From: Georgenia ruanii
GTDB lineage: Bacteria > Actinomycetota > Actinomycetes > Actinomycetales > Actinomycetaceae
Length of the DNA: 58,745 bases
NCBI RefSeq assembly: GCF_009193175.1
Contig: NZ_VUKE01000024.1
Span: forward strand, 1 to 58,745
Reading direction: 5' to 3'
Shown piece after piece: positions 11,250 to 56,552 of the stretch. The first letter of the stretch is position 1. The number at the start of each line of letters is the position of its first letter. Both the position numbers and the translations under genes were made by a program. The notes under the pieces were generated by a model. That model searched no databases, had not been told where the DNA came from, and saw only the letters and a list, made by a program, of their open reading frames with translations.

Positions 11250-11933
11250 GTGACCCCAGCGCGTGACCGCCCCGAGAGTTCGCGGCCGGACCGCGCGCGC
11301 CGGCGGGGGCGCCCGGCCACGCCGGTGCTCTCCCCGGCGAAGATCACCGCGGCGGCCATGGCCCTGATCGAGTCCCGGGGGTACCGGGCGCTGACGATGG
11401 CGGCCCTGGCCCGCGAGCTGCGGGTCTCGCCGTCGGCGCTGTACAACCACGTGCGTGCCAAGCAGGACCTGCTGCGCTGGATCCAGGACCACGTCAACGA
11501 GGGCATCGACGCCTCGGGCTTCGCGACGGAGCCGTGGGACGTGGCGCTGGAGCGGTGGGCCCGGTCCTACCGGGACGCCTACGCGCGCCACGCCCCCCTC
11601 GTGCCGGTCATCGCCGTCGCGCCGGTCGCCGGGGCGACGCACACCATCGCGATGTACGAGCGGGTGGCGGCCGGGCTGCAGACGGGCGGGTGGCCGGCCG
11701 AGGCCGTCGTCGACGTCATCGTCGCGGTGGAGTCCTTCGTGCTCGCCTCGGCGCTGGACGCCACCTCCCCGCCGGACATCTTCGACGTCGGCGACCTCGC
11801 CTCCACCGCGCCGGTCTTCGCCGCGGCGGTGGCCGCGCGCCGAGCCGACGACCCGGCGGGCGCGGCCTTCGACGTCGGGCTGACCGCCCTGCTCGAGGGC
11901 CTGCGCGCCCGCCTCGCCCGGCTGCAGCCGTGA
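11250..11933 (+). CDS. TetR-family transcriptional regulator
   Basis: The 227-residue product has a basic N-terminus followed by the TetR DNA-binding domain (about residues 30-80): ITAAAMALIESRGYRALTMA, then RELRVSPSALYNHVRAKQDL. The recognition helix is SPSALYNHV. The rest is an all-helical ligand/dimer domain ending LLEGLRARLARLQP. A GTG at 11250 nine bases after GAAGGA is preferred to an in-frame upstream ATG, which would place the start across the candidate operator. It probably represses itself and the divergent aminotransferase; the inducer is unknown. Confidence 0.88.
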   Translation: MTPARDRPESSRPDRARRRGRPATPVLSPAKITAAAMALIESRGYRALTMAALARELRVSPSALYNHVRAKQDLLRWIQDHVNEGIDASGFATEPWDVALERWARSYRDAYARHAPLVPVIAVAPVAGATHTIAMYERVAAGLQTGGWPAEAVVDVIVAVESFVLASALDATSPPDIFDVGDLASTAPVFAAAVAARRADDPAGAAFDVGLTALLEGLRARLARLQP

Positions 11934-12012
11934 GACGCCAGCCGGCGAGACCGGTGGGAGCGCGCTGAGTAGCGCACTGCCCGCCGCCATGGCCGCGCCG
12001 ACCCCGGAGGCC

Positions 12013-12046
12013 GCTGCGGCGCCGGGCACGTGCCCGGCGCCGCAGC
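12013..12046. terminator. 34-bp perfect palindrome between convergent genes
   Basis: The two 17-base halves (12013-12029 and 12030-12046) are exact reverse complements centred on CACGTG. The position between the TetR stop and the aldehyde dehydrogenase stop suits a bidirectional terminator. Confidence 0.7.
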
Positions 12047-12078
12047 CCAGCGCTCCTACGTCTCGACGCGGGGGCGGG

Positions 12079-13530
12079 TTACTCCTCGCCGAGGGCGTGC
12101 ATGACGTGCTTGACCCGGGTGTACTCCTCCACCGAGTACAGCGAGAGGTCCTTGCCGTACCCGGAGGACTTGAACCCGCCGTGCGGCATCTCCGACGTCA
12201 GCAGCACGTGCGTGTTGACCCACACGCAGCCGAAGTCCAGGTCGCGCGAGACCCGCATGGCGGTGCCGTGGTCGGCGGTCCACACGCTGGAGGCGAGGGC
12301 GTAGTCGACGTCGTTGGCCAGCTCGACGGCCTCCGCCTCGGTGGCGAAGGACTGGACAGTCAGCACCGGGCCGAAGGTCTCCTCCTGCACGATCCGGTCG
12401 TCCTGGCGCACCCCGGTGACGATGGTCGGCTCGAAGAAGTACCCGACGTCCGAGGCCGGCTTGCCGCCGGTGACGACCGTGGCGTGTGCCGGCAGCGACT
12501 CCACCTTCTCCTTGACGGTGGCGAAGTGGCGGGCGTTGTTGAGCGGGCCGTAGAAGTTCTTCGAGTCGTCCGGGTCGCCGGTGGTCGTCTCGCGTGCGGC
12601 CTGGGCGAGCAGCTCGACGAACTCGTCGTGCACGGAGTCCTGCACCAGCACCCGGGTGACGGCGGTGCAGTCCTGGCCGGCGTTGAAGGTGCCGAACTCC
12701 ACCAGCGCCTGGGCGGTGGCGGGCAGGTCGGCGTCGGCGAAGACGACGGCGGGTGCCTTGCCGCCGAGCTCGAGGTGGCTGCGCTTGACGTTCTTCGCCG
12801 CGCTGGCCGCCACGGCCTTGCCCGCCCGGACCGAGCCGGTGATCGAGACCATCGCCGGGGTGCGGTGCTCGGTCATGAGCTCGCCGGTGGAGGCGTCGCC
12901 CAGGACGACGTTGAGCACCCCGGCCGGCAGGATGTCCTGGGCGATGCGCGCGATCTCGAGGGTGGACTCCGGGGTGGTGTCGGAGGGCTTGAGCACGATG
13001 GTGTTGCCCGCCGCCAGCGCCGGGCCGATCTTCCAGATCGCCATCATCAGCGGGTAGTTCCAGGGCGTGACCTGGGCGACGACGCCCACGGGCTCGCGCC
13101 GCACGTAGGAGGTGTGGCCGGGCAGGTACTCGGTGGCCGCCTTGCCCTCGAGGGTGCGCGCCGCCCCGGCGAAGAAGCGGAGGTTGTCCGCGCCGGCGCC
13201 GACCTCCTCCTGGCCGATCATCTCGCGGGGCTGGCCGGTGTTGCGGTGCTGGGCCTCCACGAGGGCGGACTCGTTGGCCTCGAGCGCGTCGGCGAGGCGC
13301 AGCAGCAACCGCTGCCGCTCGCTGGGGGTGGTGCGCCGCCACGTGCGGAAGGCGGTCGCGGCGGCCGCCATCGCGGCATCGACGTCCGCGGCGCCGGAGA
13401 TCGGGGAGACGGCGACGACCTCAGCGGTGGTGGGGTCGACGACGTCGAGCCGGCCCTCGCCGATCGCGTCGACGAACTCGCCGTTGATGAAGTTCTTCAG
13501 GACCACGGCCTCTGGCGCCACGGAGCTCAT
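12079..13530 (-). CDS. patD: Gamma-aminobutyraldehyde dehydrogenase-like aldehyde dehydrogenase
   Basis: The 483-residue product is a complete aldehyde dehydrogenase: Asn in TPWNYP (about N158), Lys in LKPSD, glycine motif ITGSVRAGK, general-base Glu in LELGGKAP (about E255) and nucleophile Cys in NAGQDCTA (about C288). The GQDCTA form is typical of gamma-aminobutyraldehyde dehydrogenases, which convert the aldehyde from putrescine deamination into GABA with NAD+. The context agrees: a PucR regulator, gabT and gabD follow. The start at 13530 follows GCAGAGAGG; a longer in-frame start at 13596 would cover the putative promoter. The 184-base upstream region has repeated GCCA-type elements (see 13640-13704). 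Betaine-aldehyde specificity is the main alternative. Confidence 0.82.
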   Translation of the reverse strand: MSSVAPEAVVLKNFINGEFVDAIGEGRLDVVDPTTAEVVAVSPISGAADVDAAMAAAATAFRTWRRTTPSERQRLLLRLADALEANESALVEAQHRNTGQPREMIGQEEVGAGADNLRFFAGAARTLEGKAATEYLPGHTSYVRREPVGVVAQVTPWNYPLMMAIWKIGPALAAGNTIVLKPSDTTPESTLEIARIAQDILPAGVLNVVLGDASTGELMTEHRTPAMVSITGSVRAGKAVAASAAKNVKRSHLELGGKAPAVVFADADLPATAQALVEFGTFNAGQDCTAVTRVLVQDSVHDEFVELLAQAARETTTGDPDDSKNFYGPLNNARHFATVKEKVESLPAHATVVTGGKPASDVGYFFEPTIVTGVRQDDRIVQEETFGPVLTVQSFATEAEAVELANDVDYALASSVWTADHGTAMRVSRDLDFGCVWVNTHVLLTSEMPHGGFKSSGYGKDLSLYSVEEYTRVKHVMHALGEE

Positions 13531-18134: not shown

Positions 18135-19634
18135 ATGAGCATCACCGTCACGCCCGCCGCGGGCACCGACCTGCGCGGCTACGTCGACGCCCTCGCCCCC
18201 CGTCAGGGCGTGTGGATCGACGGCCGCGGGGCCGCCGCCCAGGGCGACGGCACCTTTGCCGTGACCGACCCGGCCACCGGCACCGTCATCGCCGAGATCG
18301 CCGACGGGCAGGTGGCCGACGCCCTCGCCGCCGTCGACGCCGCCGCCCGCGCCCTGCCCGGCTGGGCCGCCACCGCCGCCCGGGAGCGCTCGGAGGCGCT
18401 GCGCCGCGCCTTCGCCCTGATGATCGCCAGCACCGAGCAGCTCGCCGCGCTGATCTCGTGGGAGAACGGCAAGTCCCTGGCCGACGCCCGCTCCGAGGTC
18501 GTCTACGCCGCCGAGTTCTTCCGCTGGTTCGCCGAGGAGGCGGTGCGCACCGAGGGCGAGTACGGCCCCTCGCCCGCCGGCGGCACCCGCACCGTGGTGA
18601 CGCACAAGCCGGTCGGCGTCGCCGCCCTGATCACCCCGTGGAACTTCCCGGCCGCCATGGCCACCCGCAAGATCGCCCCGGCGCTGGCCGCCGGGTGCAC
18701 CGTGGTCCTCAAGCCCGCCGGCGAGACCCCGCTGACCGCGCTCGCCATCGCGAAGATCCTCACCGAGGCCGGCGTGCCGGACGGCGTCGTCAACGTCGTC
18801 CCGACGAAGTCCTCCTCCACGGTGGTCACCGCCTGGCTCGAGGACCCCCGGGTCCGGAAGATCTCCTTCACCGGCTCCACCCCGGTCGGCCGGATCCTGC
18901 TCAAGCAGGCCGCCGACCGCGTGGTCAACAGCTCGATGGAGCTGGGCGGCAACGCCCCCTTCGTCGTGGGCCCGGACGCCGACGTCGACGCCGCCGTCGC
19001 CGGCGCCATGATCGCCAAGCTGCGCAACGGCGGCCAGGCGTGCACCGCGGCCAACCGGTTCTACGTCCACGCCGACGTCGTGGAGGAGTTCACCGAGAAG
19101 TTCGGCGCCGCCGTCGCCGCGCTCACCGTCGGCCCGGCGTTCGCGGAGGGCACCGAGATCGGCCCGCTCATCAGCGCCAAGGCGGTCGCCGGGGTGGCCG
19201 CCCTGGTCGACGGCGCGGTCGCGGCCGGGGCTCGCGTCACCCACCGGGCCGAGCTGCCGGCGGCCACCGACGGCGGGTACTTCTACGCCCCCACCGTGCT
19301 GCGCGACGTCCCCGCCGACGCCGAGATCCTGCGCACCGAGATCTTCGGACCCGTCGCCCCGATCGCCACCTGGCACGACGACGCCGAGCTCGTCGAGCTG
19401 GTCAACGACACCGAGTTCGGGCTCGCGGCGTACGTGTACTCCCGCGACCTGAAGTGGGCGATGCAGACCGCCGAGAAGATCGAGGCCGGCATGGTCGGCG
19501 TCAACCGCGGCGTCGTCTCCGACCCCGCCACCCCGTTCGGCGGGGTCAAGCAGTCCGGCCTCGGCCGCGAGGGCGCCCGCGAGGGCATCCGCGAGTTCCA
19601 GGAGACGCAGTACCTCAGCGTCGACTGGAGCTGA
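18135..19634 (+). CDS. gabD: Succinate-semialdehyde dehydrogenase
   Basis: The 499-residue aldehyde dehydrogenase oxidises succinate semialdehyde to succinate, closing the GABA route into the citric acid cycle. It carries ITPWNFP (about N170), LKPAGETPL, FTGSTPVGR, the Glu in SMELGGNAPF (about E269) and the Cys in NGGQACTAANR (about C303); the KPAGETPL and GNAPF forms match GabD-type enzymes. The ATG at 18135 follows GGAGG. A 175-base gap with a hairpin separates it from glutamate dehydrogenase, so it may have its own promoter, but it is on the same strand and probably in the same regulon. A 17-bp hairpin follows. Confidence 0.92.
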   Translation: MSITVTPAAGTDLRGYVDALAPRQGVWIDGRGAAAQGDGTFAVTDPATGTVIAEIADGQVADALAAVDAAARALPGWAATAARERSEALRRAFALMIASTEQLAALISWENGKSLADARSEVVYAAEFFRWFAEEAVRTEGEYGPSPAGGTRTVVTHKPVGVAALITPWNFPAAMATRKIAPALAAGCTVVLKPAGETPLTALAIAKILTEAGVPDGVVNVVPTKSSSTVVTAWLEDPRVRKISFTGSTPVGRILLKQAADRVVNSSMELGGNAPFVVGPDADVDAAVAGAMIAKLRNGGQACTAANRFYVHADVVEEFTEKFGAAVAALTVGPAFAEGTEIGPLISAKAVAGVAALVDGAVAAGARVTHRAELPAATDGGYFYAPTVLRDVPADAEILRTEIFGPVAPIATWHDDAELVELVNDTEFGLAAYVYSRDLKWAMQTAEKIEAGMVGVNRGVVSDPATPFGGVKQSGLGREGAREGIREFQETQYLSVDWS

Positions 19635-47497: not shown

Positions 47498-47537
47498 AGA
47501 GGCCCGGATCCGCGGAATCTAGCGGATCCGGGCCTCT
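47498..47537 (+). terminator. 16-bp hairpin after lpdA
   Basis: AGAGGCCCGGATCCGC (47498-47513) pairs perfectly with its complement (47522-47537) around an eight-base loop, followed by a short T-containing run. It marks the end of lpdA and the left edge of the lower-GC segment. Confidence 0.82.
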
Positions 47538-47649
47538 TCATGTCTTGGGGCGTCGTGGACACCTAGCGAGACGAGGCGACCAGTAGTCCATCCGAAGGGG
47601 CCATCCCTCGCCCCTGGTTGAACGACCCTGACGGGACTACGGTAGCCGG

Positions 47650-50523
47650 GTGCCGTTGTTGGACCGCGGCGAAGAGAAGCGGACCCTCGACCAAGTGCTC
47701 GACCGTGTGCGCGCCGGAGCCAGTGGGGTGTTGGTTCTTCGGGGGGAACCTGGAGTTGGGAAATCCGCCCTCCTCGACTACGCGGTCGAGCGTGCGTCCG
47801 ACCTGCGGGTCGCCAAGACGGTGGCGGTCGAGTCGGAGACGGCCCTAAGTTTCGCCGCCGTCCACCAGTTGCTCCTTCCATTCCTGTCCGTCGCGGACCG
47901 GTTGCCTGAGCCACAGCGGCGGGCGCTCGGCGTGGCCTTCGGGCTGCAGGCCGGGCCCCCGGCCGATCCGTTCCTGGTCGGCTTGGCGGTGCTGACACTG
48001 CTTGCCGAGATCGGCGCGTTTCAGCCGGTTTTGTGTGTCATCGACGACGCGCAGTGGCTGGACGACGAGTCCGCCGACGTCCTTGCCTTTGTGGCGCGCC
48101 GGCTATTGGCCGACAGGGTCGGGATGCTGTTCGCGATCCGCGAGACCATGGAGCCGGACCCTCATCTGCAAGCGTTACCCGGTCTTCCACTCGCCGGCCT
48201 GCCAGCCCAGCATGCACACGAACTTCTGGAAACCTCGGTCGGCCGGCCGATCGACGTACGAGTAGCGGCACGAATCATTGCAGAGACCGGCGGCAATCCG
48301 CTCGCCGTGGTCGAAGTCGCCCGCGAGCTGTCCTCGGAGCAACTGATCGGACGCGCGCCGCTATCCGAGCCCTTGCCTGTGGGTCACAAACTCGAAGAAC
48401 TTTTCCTGCGGCGCGTGCGTGAGCTTCCGAGGGATACGCAGACGCTGCTGCTGTTGGCGGCGGCGGAGATTCCGAGCAGGGGCGACCGGCTCTGGAAGGC
48501 GGCGGGGTCGCTGGGTGTCACCGAACTCGCCGCAGCTCCCGCGGAGAGCCGAGGAATGGTGGTGTTTGGGCCGGAGGTGCGGTTCTCGCACCCACTCGTC
48601 CGCTCGGCGGTCTACCACGGCGCGGCCCCGGGACAGCGTAGGGAGGCGCACCGCGCCCTCGCGGGGGCTTGCGATCCGCAGATCGACGAGGGTCCCCGGG
48701 CCTCGCATCTTGCCGCGGCCACTGCCGGGCCTGACGAAGGCGTCGCAGTCCAGCTCGAAATGGCAGCGGACCGGGCCAAGAGCCGTGGTGGCTACTCCGC
48801 CATGGCTGCGCTCCTTGAGCGCGCGGCCTTACTGACCCCGCTGGAGGAACGGCGAGCCGAACGACGGCTGCTGGCTGCGAAAACCCACGTTGCCGCTGGG
48901 GCACTTGACCGGGCGGAGGCCTTATTGGGCGAGGCTGCCACGGGTTTGCACGATCCACGGTCGACCGCGCAGGCGACGCAGCTGGAGGGCAGGATTCGGT
49001 TCCACCGCGGGCGGGTAGCCGAAGCAGTCTTCTCGCTTCTCTGCGCGGCGAGACGATTGCGGTCGCTCGACCCGCGTGAGGCGCGGGACGCGCTGCTCTC
49101 CGCACTGGAGGCCGCCGTGTTCGCCGGATGGGCGCCCAGCGCCCCCCTCCTGCAAGAGATCGCGCGGACGGCGCAGCATCTGCCGCACACCGGTGATCCT
49201 CCAGACTCGGCGGCCCAATTATTGCTCCAGGGTTGCATCACGCGGTTGACGAGTGGCTATGTGGCGGCGGTGCCGACGCTGCGTCGCACGGTCCAGGCCT
49301 TCCTCGCGGATGAGATAGACCAGGATGTTGCGCTCCAACGAGTGGAACTCGCCGCCGTCCTTGCCGCTGATCTGTGGGACGACTCCGCGGTCGAACAGTT
49401 GGCCGCTGACTGGATCGACCGGGCGCGTGGGATCGGTGCGTTGCCCAGGCTCGCGGCCGCGCTCGCTTTCCGGGGCGTCTACGTCGACGGGCCCGCTGGA
49501 CGGCTCGCCGCTGCCAGGGTCGCGGAATCGGAAGCGCACGAACTGGCGGAGGCGACCGGCAACCCTGCGATCGTCCCTCCCACGGGCGCTCACACCCTGC
49601 TCACCCTTGCGCTCAGCGGCCGCGAGGCGGAGGCGCGAGCCATAGCCTCGGCAGTGGCAGGGGAGGCCCCGGGCAGGGGGGCCGTCGGTGAGATGGCCAT
49701 GGCGGCGTCCTTCCTTGGCGTGCTGGAGCTCAGTCTCGGCAACTATGGTTCGGCCGTGGTGTGCCTGGATGCGGCTTACACCGATGACACGCCGCTCGTC
49801 GGGACCCGGTCACTGCCCGACCTGGTCGAAGCAGCCGTCCGTTCCGGTCGCCGAGACCTGGCAGAACGCGCACTCCATCGCTTGGAGGACCGTGCGACCG
49901 CGACCGGCACTTCCCTAGCCCTCGGGTTGCTCGCCCGGTCGCGAGCTCTGCTGGCCACCCCGGCCCAGGCCCTTGACGAGTACGAAGACGCCCTGGACAG
50001 GCTTGGCCGGACCCGAGCCGCCTCCGAGGTCGCTCGCACGCTCCTCCTATACGGCGAGTGGTTACGTCGGCAGCGCCGTCGGCGTGAGGCACGCGCCCAG
50101 TTGCGTACCGCACACGACATGTTCGATGGAATGGGCATGTACGCCTTCGCCGAGCGGGCGCGCCTGGAGTTGAGCGCCACCGGCGAGCACGTCCCGAAGC
50201 GGGAGACGGAGACGCCCGAGGACCTCACCCCCCGAGAGGCGCAGGTCGCCGCCCTGGTCAGTCAGGGTGCGGCGAATCGCGATATCGCCGCCCAGCTGTT
50301 CGTCAGTCCAAGTACTGTGGAGTACCACCTGCATAAGGTCTTCCGAAAGTTCGGCGTGACCTCGCGCACCCAGCTCGCCCACCGCGTGATCAATCAGGGC
50401 TCAGGCGCCGTGGCCCTACTCCCGGCCTCGAGCGCCCACACCTCGGCCGCCACCGACCCTGCATCTGCGATTTCGACCCAACGGCGAGGGCCAAGACACC
50501 CCGGCGCTGCGAAGGCGCGCTAA
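47650..50523 (+). CDS. Large LuxR-family regulator with AAA/STAND ATPase domain
   Basis: The 957-residue product has the LAL architecture: N-terminal ATPase with Walker A RGEPGVGKSALL (about 31-42) and Walker B VLCVIDDAQWLDDE (about 127-140), a long helical (TPR-like) region, and a C-terminal LuxR helix-turn-helix (about 858-915: DLTPREAQVAALVSQGAANRDIAAQLFVSPSTVEYHLHKVF). Such proteins activate transcription after ATP and ligand binding. The GTG at 47650 has no clear ribosome site. Three in-frame TTA codons (48829, 48922, 49219) and relaxed third positions set it apart from the GC-rich genes to the left. It precedes, and may activate, the peroxidase cassette downstream. Confidence 0.88.
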   Translation: MPLLDRGEEKRTLDQVLDRVRAGASGVLVLRGEPGVGKSALLDYAVERASDLRVAKTVAVESETALSFAAVHQLLLPFLSVADRLPEPQRRALGVAFGLQAGPPADPFLVGLAVLTLLAEIGAFQPVLCVIDDAQWLDDESADVLAFVARRLLADRVGMLFAIRETMEPDPHLQALPGLPLAGLPAQHAHELLETSVGRPIDVRVAARIIAETGGNPLAVVEVARELSSEQLIGRAPLSEPLPVGHKLEELFLRRVRELPRDTQTLLLLAAAEIPSRGDRLWKAAGSLGVTELAAAPAESRGMVVFGPEVRFSHPLVRSAVYHGAAPGQRREAHRALAGACDPQIDEGPRASHLAAATAGPDEGVAVQLEMAADRAKSRGGYSAMAALLERAALLTPLEERRAERRLLAAKTHVAAGALDRAEALLGEAATGLHDPRSTAQATQLEGRIRFHRGRVAEAVFSLLCAARRLRSLDPREARDALLSALEAAVFAGWAPSAPLLQEIARTAQHLPHTGDPPDSAAQLLLQGCITRLTSGYVAAVPTLRRTVQAFLADEIDQDVALQRVELAAVLAADLWDDSAVEQLAADWIDRARGIGALPRLAAALAFRGVYVDGPAGRLAAARVAESEAHELAEATGNPAIVPPTGAHTLLTLALSGREAEARAIASAVAGEAPGRGAVGEMAMAASFLGVLELSLGNYGSAVVCLDAAYTDDTPLVGTRSLPDLVEAAVRSGRRDLAERALHRLEDRATATGTSLALGLLARSRALLATPAQALDEYEDALDRLGRTRAASEVARTLLLYGEWLRRQRRRREARAQLRTAHDMFDGMGMYAFAERARLELSATGEHVPKRETETPEDLTPREAQVAALVSQGAANRDIAAQLFVSPSTVEYHLHKVFRKFGVTSRTQLAHRVINQGSGAVALLPASSAHTSAATDPASAISTQRRGPRHPGAAKAR

Positions 50524-50840
50524 CACCCGGTGCTGAAGCCGCTGCTCGAAGCTTGACCGAGCCGGCGCATGTAACGGCTTCGGCGCGCCGGGCGGGTGCT
50601 CCGCCCTGGCGGTCTGCGGCAGTCACCGAAACCGGTGAGGCCCCCCGATGGCCGACAGGTCGGCACGTGGCCTGCCCGACGCATCGACATCCTGGAGCCC
50701 GACTGGGCGTTTCATGGATTCCACGCCGTCCGTCGCGCCCTACCTTGTTGACACCGGACTACGCGGCCGTAGCCACCGGGGGCAGGACACCTCTCGCGTC
50801 AACGCGAGGAGTGTCTCGCGAACTCGTGTTGGGGGAAGCC
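50524..50840. other. Regulatory gap upstream of the peroxidase cassette
   Basis: The 317 bases carry no recognisable gene. A perfect TTGACA occurs at 50748-50753 with a weak TAGCCA 16 bases further on, a possible promoter for the cassette; the long distance to the start codon would leave a 5' leader of roughly 60 bases. Confidence 0.45.
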
Positions 50841-51458
50841 ATGGCAAGCACGACCAGCGAGAAGTCAGGGAAGGGCCTCACCGATGGAGTTGTTTCCGAG
50901 CTGGCGACCTACTGGAACGTCCTGCCTGGACACGAAGAGGAGCTGCGGGCGGCGACTCAGCGGTTCGCGGACATCCTGCACAGCGCCGGTCTCGAGAAGA
51001 ACATCCACACAGGCCTGCGGGACCAACGCCACGTGATCTTCGACGGCGGAGAACGGCTGATGTGGGCCACGACCTTCGAAACGGAATGGGACCCCTACTT
51101 CGACGATTTCGTCCAGATCGGCATCGAGCACTTCCTGGACTGGATGCAGCACACCACCCAATACGAGGACGTCTCAGCGTGGCTGGAGAGCTCCGGCGGA
51201 GTGGAGACTTTTCGGCTGGACAACCCTGATCTCGAGGCCCAGTTGAAGCGGAGCGTCGGCGGGCTCAAGGCGATCGTGCAGTCAGTGCAGAGCCCGGCAA
51301 CTGGCTACGTCAACAACACGGGCACGTGGACGATGCCGGAGATCGTCAAGGCGATGCGTGTGCAGCAGGCGTTCCAACAGGTGCTCGACGACCCCGCCGC
51401 CGAGGAGGCGCTGCAGCACCCGGCGCTGAAGCCCCTGCTTGACCAGGCCGCTGAGTGA
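50841..51458 (+). CDS. Predicted dimeric alpha/beta-barrel protein, function unknown
   Basis: The 205-residue product is not a family I can name. The stretch LATYWNVLPGHEEELRAATQRFADILHSAGLEKNIHTGLRDQRHVIFDGGERLMWATTF has the strand-helix-strand rhythm and G-H-E-x-x-L-R start seen in small ferredoxin-like dimeric barrels; a second half has aromatic-rich YFDDFVQIGIEHFLDWMQH and a helical C-terminus. There is no signal peptide. The ATG at 50841 follows GGGGGAAG. It is the first gene of the DyP cassette, 48 bases before the peroxidase, and may bind a haem, flavin or substrate for it; that is inference. Confidence 0.72.
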   Translation: MASTTSEKSGKGLTDGVVSELATYWNVLPGHEEELRAATQRFADILHSAGLEKNIHTGLRDQRHVIFDGGERLMWATTFETEWDPYFDDFVQIGIEHFLDWMQHTTQYEDVSAWLESSGGVETFRLDNPDLEAQLKRSVGGLKAIVQSVQSPATGYVNNTGTWTMPEIVKAMRVQQAFQQVLDDPAAEEALQHPALKPLLDQAAE

Positions 51459-51506
51459 GCCGGCGGGGCGGCAATCACTGCCGCACGCGACTGCCGAGGG
51501 GGCGCC

Positions 51507-52832
51507 GTGACAACGCAGACAGACACAGCGCTGGAGGTCAGCGACATCCAGGCCGCCGCCCTGATGCCCCGGCCTAATCCCTATGCGGGCACGTACGTGG
51601 CCGTGCGGATCGACGACCGGCACACCGGGCGGGAGCTGCTGCGGCGACTGATACCCCTGCTCGATCCGGTCGCCTCGTTCGATCCCCAACGGCCGGTCTC
51701 GCTCGGGGTCGGGTTCAGCTTCTCGGGGCTCGAGGCGATCGGTGTGCCGCCGGACTCGCTGTCCAGCTTCCCATCCGAGTTCCGGCAGGGCATGGCCGCT
51801 CGCGCGGCCTACCTCGGCGATGTGGGGGAGAACGCCCCCGAACACTGGGAGGCGCCCCTGGGCTCGAAGGACCTGCATCTCGTGGTGGCCGCCCTGGCGC
51901 GGGACACCGCCCTGATGGAGGCTCTGGTCATGCTCGCCCAAGACGCCATCCGGGACCTACCGGGCGTCTCGCCGATCTGGCAGTTGGACGTGCACGTCCC
52001 GCCGGACGGGCGCGAACAGTTCGGCTTCAAGGACAGCATCAGTGAGCCGGCGGTCGAGGGCACTGGCATCCTTGGCAGCAACCCGCACGAAGCCCCGCTG
52101 AAGGCTGGGGAGTTCGTCCTGGGTTACGAGGACGAAAACGGAGACCTGCCGCCGATCCCGCAGCCGGAGATCCTGGGCCGCAACGGCACGTTTGTAGCCT
52201 TCCGAAAACTGCATCAGCGCGTGGCGGCCTTCCGCACCTATCTGCGTCAGAACGCCGCGGACGATGACGAACAGTGGTTGGCGGCCAAGTTCGTCGGGCG
52301 CTGGCCTAGCGGTGCTCCATTGGCCCTGGCGCCGGACAAGGACGACCCTGAGCTGGGCGCCGACCCCGAACGCAACAACGCCTTCATGTACGGCGACGAC
52401 CCACGGGGGCTGAAGTGCCCGGTCGGGGCGCACGCCCGACGGATGAACGCCCGCGACGCGGCCATCACCGGCGAGGTTCGGCTGCATCGGATGATCCGGC
52501 GCGGCGCCAACTACGGTCCGTCATTGCCGCCCGGCGTGCTGGAGGACGATGGCGCTGACCGCGGACTGATGTTCGCCTTCGTCGGCGCGCACTTGGGCCG
52601 GCAGTTCGAGTTCGTTCAGCGGCAGTGGGTCAACGACGGAAAGTTCATCGGCGCGCCCGCCGAGCGGGACCCGCTGGTCGGTGTTCACGATGGCGGCCAG
52701 TTCACCATTCCGAAGCGGCCAATCCGCCGTCGCCTGCAGGGACTGCCTGACTTCGTCGTCAACCGGGGCGGCGAGTACTGCTTCATGCCCGGCTTGCGGG
52801 CGCTCCAATGGCTCGCCGATCCCGCCGCCTGA
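51507..52832 (+). CDS. DyP-type haem peroxidase
   Basis: The 441-residue product is a dye-decolourising-type peroxidase, which uses haem and H2O2 to oxidise organic substrates. The family's distal GxxDG motif appears as GFKDS (about 173-177, catalytic Asp D176, last Gly changed to Ser). The proximal His lies in CPVGAHARRMN (about H309) and the distal Arg in RMIRRGANYG (about R331-332). There is no Tat or Sec signal, so it should be cytosolic or packaged. The GTG at 51507 is preceded by a purine-rich GAGGGGGCG. It lies in tight order with the barrel-like gene and the DUF4331 gene (15 bases). Confidence 0.9.
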   Translation: MTTQTDTALEVSDIQAAALMPRPNPYAGTYVAVRIDDRHTGRELLRRLIPLLDPVASFDPQRPVSLGVGFSFSGLEAIGVPPDSLSSFPSEFRQGMAARAAYLGDVGENAPEHWEAPLGSKDLHLVVAALARDTALMEALVMLAQDAIRDLPGVSPIWQLDVHVPPDGREQFGFKDSISEPAVEGTGILGSNPHEAPLKAGEFVLGYEDENGDLPPIPQPEILGRNGTFVAFRKLHQRVAAFRTYLRQNAADDDEQWLAAKFVGRWPSGAPLALAPDKDDPELGADPERNNAFMYGDDPRGLKCPVGAHARRMNARDAAITGEVRLHRMIRRGANYGPSLPPGVLEDDGADRGLMFAFVGAHLGRQFEFVQRQWVNDGKFIGAPAERDPLVGVHDGGQFTIPKRPIRRRLQGLPDFVVNRGGEYCFMPGLRALQWLADPAA

Positions 52833-52847
52833 TTTCGGGAGATTGTC

Positions 52848-54041
52848 ATGGCCGATCACTTCTCCGGCCCGCGGGCTCTGGCCGATCCCGCCTCGGACAT
52901 TACCGACGTTTATGCCTTCCCAAGCCCGGAGCGGCCCGGTCACCTCGTGCTCGCCCTGAACGTGTTCCCGGCCGCCGCTGCGGGGGCGCTGTTCTCCGAC
53001 GCACTCATCTATCGCTTGCGCCTCCGGCCCGTGACGGCCACCACGGCGGGCGGCACACCGACCTTCGTGACCGGGGCCGAGGAGTATCTGTTCGAGTTCC
53101 GCTTCGCCGTTCCGACCCTGGAGGACAGCGCTGACGGCGTGGTGCAGCGCGGCACCTGCATCACGCCCCTGGGGGCGGAAGTCTCGTTCCAGGTCGGCGA
53201 ACGGGAGCCGACCGAAATGACCGAAAGCCGCGGTGTGCGCATCTTCGCCGGGGCTCGATTGGACCCGTTCTTCATCGACCTGGCCGCGGAGCAGGCCACC
53301 CACGCGTCGCAGCGGCTGATGTTCAGGCCCAAGGGCGTGAACGCCGTCAACGGCGCCAACGTGCTGAGCATCGTCCTCGAGCTCGACGTCGCCACGGTGC
53401 TCGACCGCGACACCGGAACGCTGCTGGGCGTCGTCGGTGAGACCGTGGCCTCCGCCGAACACCACGTCCGTATGGAGCGCATGGGCCGGCCGGAGATCAA
53501 GAACTTCATCCTGCAGGACAAGAAGTACGACACCGTCAACCGTGACCTTGAGATCCGCGACCTCTACAACGCGGAGGACGCCTTCGACCTGCGCCAGGAC
53601 TATGTCGGCGCGTACCGCGCCCGGTTGAACGCCAACCTGGCCTTCTTCGACCGCTTAGACGGCAGGATCGACTGGCCAGCGGACGAGGAGGGTGTCCATC
53701 CGTTGACCGAGTTGCTCCTGGCGGACTTCCTCGTAGTCGACGCGTCCAAGCCGTTCTCCGACGACGGCTTCCTGGAGATCGAGCGTGCCGTGCTCGCCGG
53801 CCGTCCGCACATGACCCGCGGCGGCAGGTCGCCCGACGACGACATCGTGGACCTTCTCTACACGCTCCTGGTCGGCGGCCTCGACGGACCGCGGATCAGC
53901 GACGGTGTCGACGGGCCGACCCAGCCGGCCGCTCGCAGCTTCCCCTACCTGGTCAGCCCCAATCCCGATCCGCCGGACCTGAGGGCGGTGCTTGCCGCGG
54001 CGACCGCGCCACCGAAGGAGGCAGCATCATCACCGGGATGA
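52848..54041 (+). CDS. DUF4331 family protein
   Basis: The 397-residue product shows the DUF4331 opening DHFSGPRALADPASDITDVYAFPSPERPGHLVLALNVFP, FEFRFAVP strands, and VNAVNGANVLSIVLELDV in the middle, a beta-rich fold with no catalytic motif known to me. Unlike many relatives it lacks a signal peptide. The ATG at 52848 follows GGGAGATTGTC. An in-frame TTA occurs at 53655. Its stop overlaps the TPR gene start by four bases (ATGA), indicating coupled translation and perhaps a complex. Confidence 0.85.
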   Translation: MADHFSGPRALADPASDITDVYAFPSPERPGHLVLALNVFPAAAAGALFSDALIYRLRLRPVTATTAGGTPTFVTGAEEYLFEFRFAVPTLEDSADGVVQRGTCITPLGAEVSFQVGEREPTEMTESRGVRIFAGARLDPFFIDLAAEQATHASQRLMFRPKGVNAVNGANVLSIVLELDVATVLDRDTGTLLGVVGETVASAEHHVRMERMGRPEIKNFILQDKKYDTVNRDLEIRDLYNAEDAFDLRQDYVGAYRARLNANLAFFDRLDGRIDWPADEEGVHPLTELLLADFLVVDASKPFSDDGFLEIERAVLAGRPHMTRGGRSPDDDIVDLLYTLLVGGLDGPRISDGVDGPTQPAARSFPYLVSPNPDPPDLRAVLAAATAPPKEAASSPG

Positions 54042-55075
54042 TCGAGGACGGCCGCCGAGTACCCACCACCAGCGGGGTCATCGCCGTGGCCAACCTCCAG
54101 GCCCAAGTCGACGGTCTGGTGGCTCGTCTCCCCACTGCACGATTCGCGCGGACGGCACTGTCATCTCCGGCGGTGGCCGAACGGGCGCTTCTGGTCGACC
54201 TGCTCATCCTGCGCGGGCAGGTGTCAGGCCGCATCACGGACTACGAAAGCGCCGCGGCTCTGGCCGAGGCACTGGTCCGGGACGCCCCGGACGAGAGCAC
54301 GTCGTGGTTGGTTCGGGCCAGGACGCGAGCGATCTTCCACCAGTTCGCGCGCACACTCGCCGACCTGGATGCCGCGGGGCGGTGCGGTGCCGACCGGGCC
54401 ACCGTGCAGGCGGAGCGGGCGGCGATCCTCCAGGCTGTCGGCTGCTACGCCGAAGCCCTAGCGCTGCGCCGGGACGCGGCGCAGCGCCGACCCGACTTCG
54501 CGGCGCTCGGTGCGCTGGCCGTGCTCGAGGCGGAGCGCGGGCGGGTCGACCGGGCGGAACGCCTCTTCACGCAGGCGAGCCACCGCTACCGGGGTGTCTC
54601 GCCGTTCCCCTTGGCTTCGCTGAATTTCCGGCGTGGGCTGATGTGGCTCGGCGAGCGGGATCTCACGGTCGCCCGTGCCTGGTTCCGCGCCGCCGTAACT
54701 TTAGTGCCGGCCTACGCTCCGGCGCTGGGTCACCTCGCCGAGGTCGACGCGGCCCTGGGCGCCCGTGAGGCGGCCATCGGCCGACTGCGCCGCCTGGCGG
54801 AATTCAGCGACGACCCCGAGTACGCGGCCGAGCTCGCCGGCGTGCTTCGCGACGCCGAGCAGATTCAGGAGGCCGAGCACTGGCGCAGCATCGCAGCGTC
54901 CCGTTACGACGAATTGGTATTACACCATCCGGAGGCCTACGTGGACCATGCGGTCGAGTTCTGGCTCACCGTGGGGGCCGATCAGCCAAAAGCTCTCCGA
55001 TTAGCGTCGCAGAGCCACGCGAGCCGGGCAGCTCAAAGGCTCGCCATGCCGCACGGCGACATTCCAATTGTCTGA
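54038..55075 (+). CDS. TPR-repeat protein coupled to DUF4331
   Basis: The 345-residue all-helical protein has tetratricopeptide-like pairs: SAAALAEALVRDAPDESTSWLVRARTRAIFHQFARTLADLDAAGR, AAILQAVGCYAEALALRRDAAQRRPDFAALGALAVLEAERGRVDRAERLF, then RAWFRAAVTLVPAYAPALGHLAEVDAALG. It has no signal or membrane segment and probably mediates protein contacts. The start overlaps the DUF4331 stop. Three in-frame TTA codons (54701, 54920, 55001) suggest foreign origin or translational control. TPR proteins following DUF4331 genes are a recurrent pair as far as I recall, of unknown role. Confidence 0.82.
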   Translation: MIEDGRRVPTTSGVIAVANLQAQVDGLVARLPTARFARTALSSPAVAERALLVDLLILRGQVSGRITDYESAAALAEALVRDAPDESTSWLVRARTRAIFHQFARTLADLDAAGRCGADRATVQAERAAILQAVGCYAEALALRRDAAQRRPDFAALGALAVLEAERGRVDRAERLFTQASHRYRGVSPFPLASLNFRRGLMWLGERDLTVARAWFRAAVTLVPAYAPALGHLAEVDAALGAREAAIGRLRRLAEFSDDPEYAAELAGVLRDAEQIQEAEHWRSIAASRYDELVLHHPEAYVDHAVEFWLTVGADQPKALRLASQSHASRAAQRLAMPHGDIPIV

Positions 55076-55115
55076 TGGCTACCCGATCTCGACGACCAAG
55101 CCTAGGCATGCTGCC

Positions 55116-56552
55116 ATGGACAAGAGCTACGACCTGGTAGTGATCGGCGCCGGTCCTGCCGGGGAAGTCGCGGCCGAGCTAGCGAGCGCCTTCGGGCGCG
55201 CTGTGCTCGTCGTCGAGCGGAGCACGCCAGGCGGGGTGGTTACGACCACCGGCGGCGCCCCTACGAAGGCCCTGCGCGAAGCCGCGCTCTACCTGACCGG
55301 CTACCGCCAGGAGGAGGTTTACGGCGTACGGGCCGCAGCGCCGCTGCAAGCCGTGATGCCTACTCTGGGTGTCAGGATCGAGCAGGTCCGCGATGTCCTG
55401 CAGGACGCTGTCGCACGCCGCTTCGTCGCTCGCGGCATCACGTACCTTCAGGGAGTTGCCCGAATCGACACGGACCGCACAGTGCACATCACCTCACCTG
55501 ATGGAACGGCGCACGCGGTCGCGTCTCGCGCGGTTGTGATCGCAACGGGGTCACGCCCCACGCATTACTCCGGCATTCCCTTCGACGACCCGGACGTCTA
55601 CGACTCCGATGAGATCTGGGCGCTGCCCGCTGCTCCGACAGACATCGTCATCGTCGGCGGCGGCCCAATCGGCGTCGAGTTCGCCACCGTGTTTACCGCC
55701 CTCGGCATCCCCGCCACACTTGTCAACAAGTCCGATCGCCTCCTGCCGACCGTCGACGGCGAGTTGGCCGGGCTGCTGGCCGAGGAGTTCCAGCGGCGCG
55801 GAGTCCGGCTGGTACTGGGCGCGGGCGCGGACGGGGTGAGGCGCGTCGACGGCCGGCTCCTGGTCACGCTCTCGAACGGCACGGCCCTGGAGGGGGACGC
55901 GGTCTTGTTCGCCGCTGGTCGCACTGCCAACACGGAGGCCCTCGGTCTCGAACAGGCCGGCGTGCGACTCGACGCCGCCGGCCGGATCATCGTCGACCGC
56001 TACTACCGGACGACCGCTCCAGGAATCTACGCAGCCGGCGACGTGGTGCGACCCGGCCTCGCCTCCAGCGCTATGCAACAAGGACGAGCAGCGGCGGCTC
56101 ACGCCTGCGGACTGGTCTTCGGTGTCGAGATCGACCAGACGGTAAGTACCGCTGTCTACGGCCTACCCGAAGTGGCCAGCGCCGGTGCGACCGAAGAACA
56201 GATCCGCTCCAGCGGCATCCCGTACGCGGTGGGCCGCTGCGACCTCTCCACCACCCCACGCGGAGCAATCGCCGGACACGGTGGACTGCTCAAGCTCATC
56301 TTCCACGCCGATAACCGCAAACTGCTCGGCGTCCACTGCTTCGGCGACATCGCCTCCGAGGTGGTCGGCCTGGGCCACGTGGTCCTCCAGCTTGGTGGCA
56401 GGATCGAAATGTTCTTGACACTCGCGCTCAACACGCCCACGTACAACTATGCGTATCACGACGCAACTGTCGACGGCCTGACCCGACTGACGAAGCTGAT
56501 GGGCATGCCCGAGAGCGGGGAATCGCCAGTACAGAGATCTCGGGCTTCATAG
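55116..56552 (+). CDS. SthA/Lpd-like flavoprotein lacking the redox cysteines
   Basis: The 478-residue product has the pyridine-nucleotide-disulfide reductase fold: FAD motif VVIGAGPAGEVAA (about 8-20), NAD(P) motif IVIVGGGPIGVEFATVF, IYAAGDVVRPGLASSAMQQG, and the C-terminal dimer domain. ALREAALYLTGYRQEEVYG is characteristic of soluble transhydrogenases (SthA). Where Lpd has [13 protein letters not shown] this protein has GGVVTTTGGAPTK: both cysteines are replaced (Val42, Gly47, same numbering as lpdA in this window). It may transfer electrons between NADH and NADPH or reduce another protein without a disulfide. The ATG at 55116 is preferred to a TTG at 55068. Confidence 0.86.
   Translation: MDKSYDLVVIGAGPAGEVAAELASAFGRAVLVVERSTPGGVVTTTGGAPTKALREAALYLTGYRQEEVYGVRAAAPLQAVMPTLGVRIEQVRDVLQDAVARRFVARGITYLQGVARIDTDRTVHITSPDGTAHAVASRAVVIATGSRPTHYSGIPFDDPDVYDSDEIWALPAAPTDIVIVGGGPIGVEFATVFTALGIPATLVNKSDRLLPTVDGELAGLLAEEFQRRGVRLVLGAGADGVRRVDGRLLVTLSNGTALEGDAVLFAAGRTANTEALGLEQAGVRLDAAGRIIVDRYYRTTAPGIYAAGDVVRPGLASSAMQQGRAAAAHACGLVFGVEIDQTVSTAVYGLPEVASAGATEEQIRSSGIPYAVGRCDLSTTPRGAIAGHGGLLKLIFHADNRKLLGVHCFGDIASEVVGLGHVVLQLGGRIEMFLTLALNTPTYNYAYHDATVDGLTRLTKLMGMPESGESPVQRSRAS

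Follow-up and report, generated by a model that had tools for sequence, protein, structure and literature searches.

A six-gene cassette carrying a conserved barrel–DyP peroxidase pair with exchangeable partners

In encapsulin–DyP systems, a leaderless DyP is accompanied by a dedicated partner gene. A DyP, EfeB, is also encoded within a multi-gene operon, efeUOB (PMC8197335). The DyP of Deinococcus radiodurans (DrDyP, PDB 8RE2/8RE3) was reported to be six-coordinate low-spin, inactive, and unable to bind H2O2 at pH 7.5 when alone. The authors of that study raise the questions of which substrates DyPs act on physiologically and of what might activate DrDyP, and their text nowhere uses the word "operon" (PMC10820274). 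DrDyP proved to be the closest solved relative of the DyP studied here, matching it with 427 bits over nearly the full length.

The 58,745-nt stretch of Georgenia ruanii DNA that was analyzed (the window) carries six ORFs, all on the + strand, at positions 47650–56552. Our ORF check agreed with the original prediction of five same-strand genes following a LuxR-family regulator, the intergenic gaps being 317, 48, 15, −4, and 40 nt in cassette order. The regulator (47650..50523), presumably of the LAL type, has an AAA_16 ATPase domain at the N-terminus and a GerE HTH at the C-terminus (Pfam), a 79% identical ortholog in Streptomyces hirsutus, and a homolog in locus L072. It is followed by a barrel-like protein of 205 aa with no family name (50841..51458), a DyP-type heme peroxidase (51507..52832), a DUF4331 protein (52848..54041), a TPR protein recognized by Pfam (54038..55075), and a FAD/NAD(P) oxidoreductase resembling soluble transhydrogenases (55116..56552). 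After review of the start sites, the barrel most likely begins at ATG 50841 rather than at TTG 50553 of the mechanical ORF, and the flavoprotein at ATG 55116, giving the last of the gaps. The DUF4331 and TPR genes overlap by ATGA, and TPR is present in 7 of 11 DUF4331 loci, in line with the coupled pair proposed earlier. No leader or membrane helix was seen by hydropathy in the five downstream proteins, which agrees with the predicted cytosolic location of the DyP. The promoter and terminator scan gave one promoter-like site (0.5 in shuffles) and four terminator-like sites (3.9 in shuffles).

The window DyP scored 105.4 bits against TIGR01413 (cut-off 100.5) and retains the catalytic Asp, distal Arg, and proximal His (D176, R265, and H327). 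Its GXXDG motif is incomplete (GFKDS), with Ser at position 5, where 49 of 68 aligned DyPs have Gly; the protein is still classed as a DyP because the Met of DrDyP at this position is reported not to affect activity (PMC10820274). The two proteins are thus alike in having a residue other than Gly there and differ in which one. The D. radiodurans DyP locus, as seen in one isolate, likewise has a barrel ORF directly upstream of a DyP with the same Met, whereas the third partner downstream is catalase-like, unlike the DUF4331–TPR pair of the window. The uncharacterised partner gene that is conserved beside the DrDyP subfamily makes a direct candidate for the activating factor being sought. As in efeUOB, the window DyP belongs to a multi-gene arrangement; that system was rejected, no iron-transport family being found among the six genes and TIGR01412 giving 17 bits against a cut-off of 428. 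Similarly, the window DyP resembles the encapsulin-linked ones in being leaderless with a partner gene, and an encapsulated DyP system was rejected since no encapsulin Pfam family was found in the six genes, LPD or DUF1003.

The core of the cassette is the barrel together with the DrDyP-type DyP, and the six genes are not a fixed unit. The genome survey concerned one phylum, other phyla being represented by plasmid records. A barrel profile made of 21 sequences, every one from a DyP-containing locus, matched 36 of 394 class genomes, the 46 match rows corresponding to 40 distinct places (38 fetched loci, the window, and G352, that is, L071). A DyP adjoins the barrel at all 40 places, a count that could miss DyP-less barrels since the profile came from DyP-adjacent barrels only and at most nine candidates were scored per genome. 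The DyPs at these places (39 scored of the 40) gave 323–672 bits with our own DyP profile. When the DyP was taken as the starting point, a barrel was present in 14 of 16 plasmid loci hand-picked from 81 DyP-matching records, and the two loci without it (L156 and L158) had the lowest DyP scores of 67. Both genes are present in 64 fetched loci, a set that includes near copies. Three of these have the genes fused; the other 61 all have them on the same strand, with the barrel upstream in 60. Barrel and DyP distances were correlated over 66 loci (r 0.66, 0 of 2000 permutations), as co-inheritance also predicts. The fused ORFs are L022:4217-8488, L157:4396-7452, and L159:2968-7299, the first of which, from Pararhizobium, joins P450, barrel, and DyP in one chain.

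The window barrel matched no Pfam or NCBIfam family, and its profile gave one chance-level match in the PDB. Its relationship to dimeric alpha/beta barrels (ABM/EthD/NIPSNAP) was tested: ABM was matched by one of 21 relatives with E 0.051, and NIPSNAP gave an hhalign probability of 0.5%. The predicted model (pLDDT 39 from a three-sequence alignment) was discarded, so the barrel fold is a putative one.

The partners of the core were counted over 66 loci gathered by barrel plus DyP (64 fetched, the window, and S. hirsutus). Within the stretches fetched, cassette-type DUF4331 was present in 11, a catalase-like protein in 14, and a 337-aa protein in 23, never two together. Co-occurrence of all five downstream genes, proposed earlier as a check, is complete in S. 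hirsutus, but only the barrel and DyP are constant over the 66 loci. A single six-gene system was not borne out: besides the 11 loci with DUF4331, the matching type of flavoprotein is restricted to the window and S. hirsutus, and a full-length LuxR homolog to these two and L072, where it lies divergently beside barrel, DyP, and catalase-like genes. The flavoprotein and the LuxR regulator are local additions to the core. L060 and L116 gave weak flavoprotein matches, which we assigned to other flavoproteins. The order barrel–DUF4331–DyP, with no TPR match, was found in L070, L130, L134, and L135.

The 337-aa protein (L017:6956-7966, L018, L020, L120–L129, L131–L133, L136–L141, and L153) is encoded between the barrel and DyP genes at 13 loci and 3' of DyP in Nostoc L020, L131–L133, and L136–L141. 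Its members are 59–100% identical to that of L017, which had no Pfam match, and the protein looks like a third alternative partner of the barrel–DyP pair. The label "catalase-like" was taken from how relatives are publicly annotated, the L072 protein having no PDB, Pfam, or NCBIfam match; annotated catalases in L019 and L161 fail the catalase-like profile and were left out of the 14. The catalase-like gene was not found in any of the five genomes with cassette-type DUF4331 and was found in seven of eight hand-picked comparison genomes (one being the query's own source, and two of the matches being weak), numbers too small to prove genome-wide exclusion.

On a DyP tree of 68 rows, at least four changes of the DUF4331 label were required, on strongly supported branches, and this label interleaved with the catalase-like one. 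Both labels were more clustered on this tree than in most shuffles, DUF4331 being as low in only 9 of 500, so partner exchange is not free. The DUF4331 proteins of L012 (Sinorhizobium) and L013 (Bradyrhizobium) group as sisters with 100/100 support, and grouping of their DyPs was rejected (AU p 2.3e-97, for a pair picked after the trees were seen); hence, DUF4331 and DyP recombined at least in these two loci.

The proximal His is replaced in at least nine barrel-linked DyPs forming one clade (L020:6962-8320, L131, L132, L133, L136, L138, L139, L140, and L141), with MNRRRMIRRG at that place and Arg at GXXDG position 5; the barrel is kept, and the 337-aa protein is encoded 3' of the DyP. These are possibly non-peroxidase DyPs, so the barrel–DyP module may not always perform peroxidase chemistry. 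The L011 DyP has Lys at the His position, and L155 and L156 likewise have no His.

The window DUF4331 protein (397 aa, starting with MADHFSGP) matched PF14224 with 93.8 bits (cut-off 27), its best stretch covering profile positions 156–421. It is not the long whole-profile form and has no leader by hydropathy (maximum 19-aa window 1.63), such as is visible in L068, L075, and L081. The cassette-type clade is separated from four ordinary members in the tree with 100/100 support and scored 486–647 bits with its own profile, against 0–90 in 28 loci fetched for ordinary members. Ordinary DUF4331 is common (PF14224 in 68 of 396 phylum genomes, the window's own included), and a TPR match stands beside it in 5 of the 28 loci (L068, L074, L075, L079, and L081); in L078, the TPR match overlaps the ordinary DUF4331 on the opposite strand. 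The cassette type was found in 4 of 394 class genomes, in all four beside barrel and DyP, in six plasmid records, always within about 1 kb of a DyP, and by the core also in G028 and S. hirsutus. The DUF4331 profile had no match in the PDB, and the predicted model, with pLDDT 40 (two-sequence alignment), was discarded. A full-text search of open-licence PMC papers returned "DUF4331" in no paper, and no barrel–DyP or DUF4331–DyP system was found among the matches listed. The cassette gives a functional context for one DUF4331 clade. In L068:4867-8901, an ordinary DUF4331 is followed by TPR and then by a NicO-family nickel-transport-like protein.

The best NCBIfam match of the flavoprotein was NF003585, the soluble transhydrogenase (418.2 bits, under the cut-off of 465), and SthA, the soluble pyridine nucleotide transhydrogenase, was also its best PDB match, so the transhydrogenase-like assignment (with Pfam Pyr_redox) was upheld. 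Like SthA, it has no CxxxxC pair. Its earlier description as "Cys-less" is loose, since the protein contains three cysteines, though not this redox pair.

The cassette is horizontally acquired and looks foreign in the genome of the window. GC3 is 0.77–0.87 in the cassette, 0.97–0.98 in three left-flank genes, and 0.90–0.94 in two right-flank ORFs. Alignment to the same-genus genome G773 (within 35 kb of it) ends at 47569, just beyond a perfect 16-bp hairpin (47498..47537) 3' of the host dihydrolipoyl dehydrogenase gene. This point is likely where the inserted segment starts on the left; its right edge was not located, and no convincing repeats were found at its ends. Of 61 family genomes searched, the 60 others lack the DUF4331 gene. 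S. hirsutus has all six genes in unchanged order, with protein identities of 70–87% and flanks that do not align, so the gene order is conserved elsewhere; a single co-transferred gene set is supported. S. hirsutus also has a second barrel copy upstream. Phage origin was rejected, PHROGs giving no match for four cassette proteins and scans of viral contigs with the DUF4331 and DyP proteins finding no relative. Anti-phage defence was rejected as well: PADLOC gave only weak matches to LuxR domains and none for the other five proteins.

The genes around the core may bear on its substrate. Fatty-acid genes adjoin it in L016, L021, L023, and L160 (Deinococcus, Acinetobacter, Roseomonas, and Novosphingobium) and in L134, and lie about 7 kb away in Bradyrhizobium L013. 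This link comes mostly from catalase-type loci of other phyla and is seen neither in the window nor in S. hirsutus. In L134, enoyl-CoA hydratase and molybdopterin oxidoreductase follow (Pfam), as they do by resemblance in L070. Rhizobial loci have acetoacetate decarboxylase and an SDR-like ORF (L015) or cytochrome c, 2Fe-2S, and molybdopterin genes (L012 and L013) downstream of the module; in L012, hemA genes flank it on both sides. The fatty-acid neighbours together with the P450–barrel–DyP fusion suggest organic, perhaps lipid, substrates. Fungal proteins like linoleate diol synthase fuse a heme dioxygenase, whose peroxidase-like domain belongs to another family, to a P450. The predicted L022 protein is comparable in combining a putative heme oxygenation domain with a P450. 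A HupE/UreJ gene is annotated downstream of the L012 module.

A peroxide- or substrate-handling complex, as originally suggested, is a reasonable hypothesis. The reading we tentatively favor, giving it a little less than an even chance, is a horizontally acquired operon of exchangeable modules, whose core would be a two-component heme enzyme (DrDyP-type DyP plus partner) most likely oxidising or detoxifying organic peroxides or substrates. The barrel would bind the DyP and supply or activate what the DyP lacks alone. The DUF4331–TPR pair would be one of three alternative accessory modules, its place being taken elsewhere by the catalase-like or the 337-aa protein. In the closest relatives, the flavoprotein may supply or balance NAD(P)H, and the LuxR-type ATPase may control the gene set. 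The most likely job would be oxidation or detoxification of organic, probably lipid-derived, peroxides or substrates.

An ordinary oxidative-stress operon seems rather improbable. In it, H2O2 or small peroxides would be removed by the DyP, reducing power would come from the flavoprotein, and the other proteins would be structural or redox accessories. The window DyP retains its catalytic Asp, Arg, and His, DUF4331 stands where relatives have the catalase-like protein, and in Granulicella L154 Fur and katG lie near the core instead of fatty-acid genes, all as such an operon would have it. We take DR_A0145 to be the D. radiodurans DyP and DR_A0146 its catalase-like neighbour. The putative peroxidase DR_A0145 and catalase-like DR_A0146 were reported to be raised after UVC/vacuum (PMC5731708), which also fits, but DrDyP reportedly did not bind H2O2 under the conditions cited above, DRA0146 is reported to scavenge H2O2 less efficiently than KatE1 (PMC7143949), and fatty-acid genes adjoin the core at several loci.

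A more specific form of the favored two-component enzyme appears unlikely: the DrDyP-type DyP would be no stand-alone peroxidase but the heme subunit of an oxygenase or peroxygenase that has the barrel as its second component and acts on lipid-derived substrates, and DUF4331–TPR, the catalase-like, and the 337-aa proteins would be three non-homologous stand-ins handling its product or peroxide.

Large LuxR regulators often control degradative or biosynthetic clusters. This role, the metabolic and redox genes after the module in L015, L012, and L013, and the P450 fusion would suit a pathway fragment that degrades or makes one particular small molecule, in which the barrel would be an oxygenase- or cyclase-like enzyme in its own right and the DyP would do the tailoring. 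We consider it doubtful, as the neighbours vary by lineage while the core is constant and no common substrate-specific gene was seen. Equally doubtful is a barrel that delivers heme to the DyP or helps to assemble it, the remaining cassette being passengers on a mobile segment, which would account for the constant barrel–DyP linkage, the hemA genes around the L012 module, and the inconstant flavoprotein and LuxR, but not for the His-less DyP clade that retains the barrel or for the fact that our searches gave no cassette-clade DUF4331 at a distance from the core.

Two further features were observed near barrel–DyP pairs. In the Streptomyces plasmid L008, two barrel ORFs (11917-12627 and 18552-19262) with an identical predicted protein lie 6.6 kb apart, with transporter-like and TetR-like ORFs, recognized by eye, between them. 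SBF (sodium/bile-acid-symporter-like) or annotated sodium-dependent transporter genes lie near the pair at L017:9383-10264, L018:10125-11267, and L020:4441-5307.
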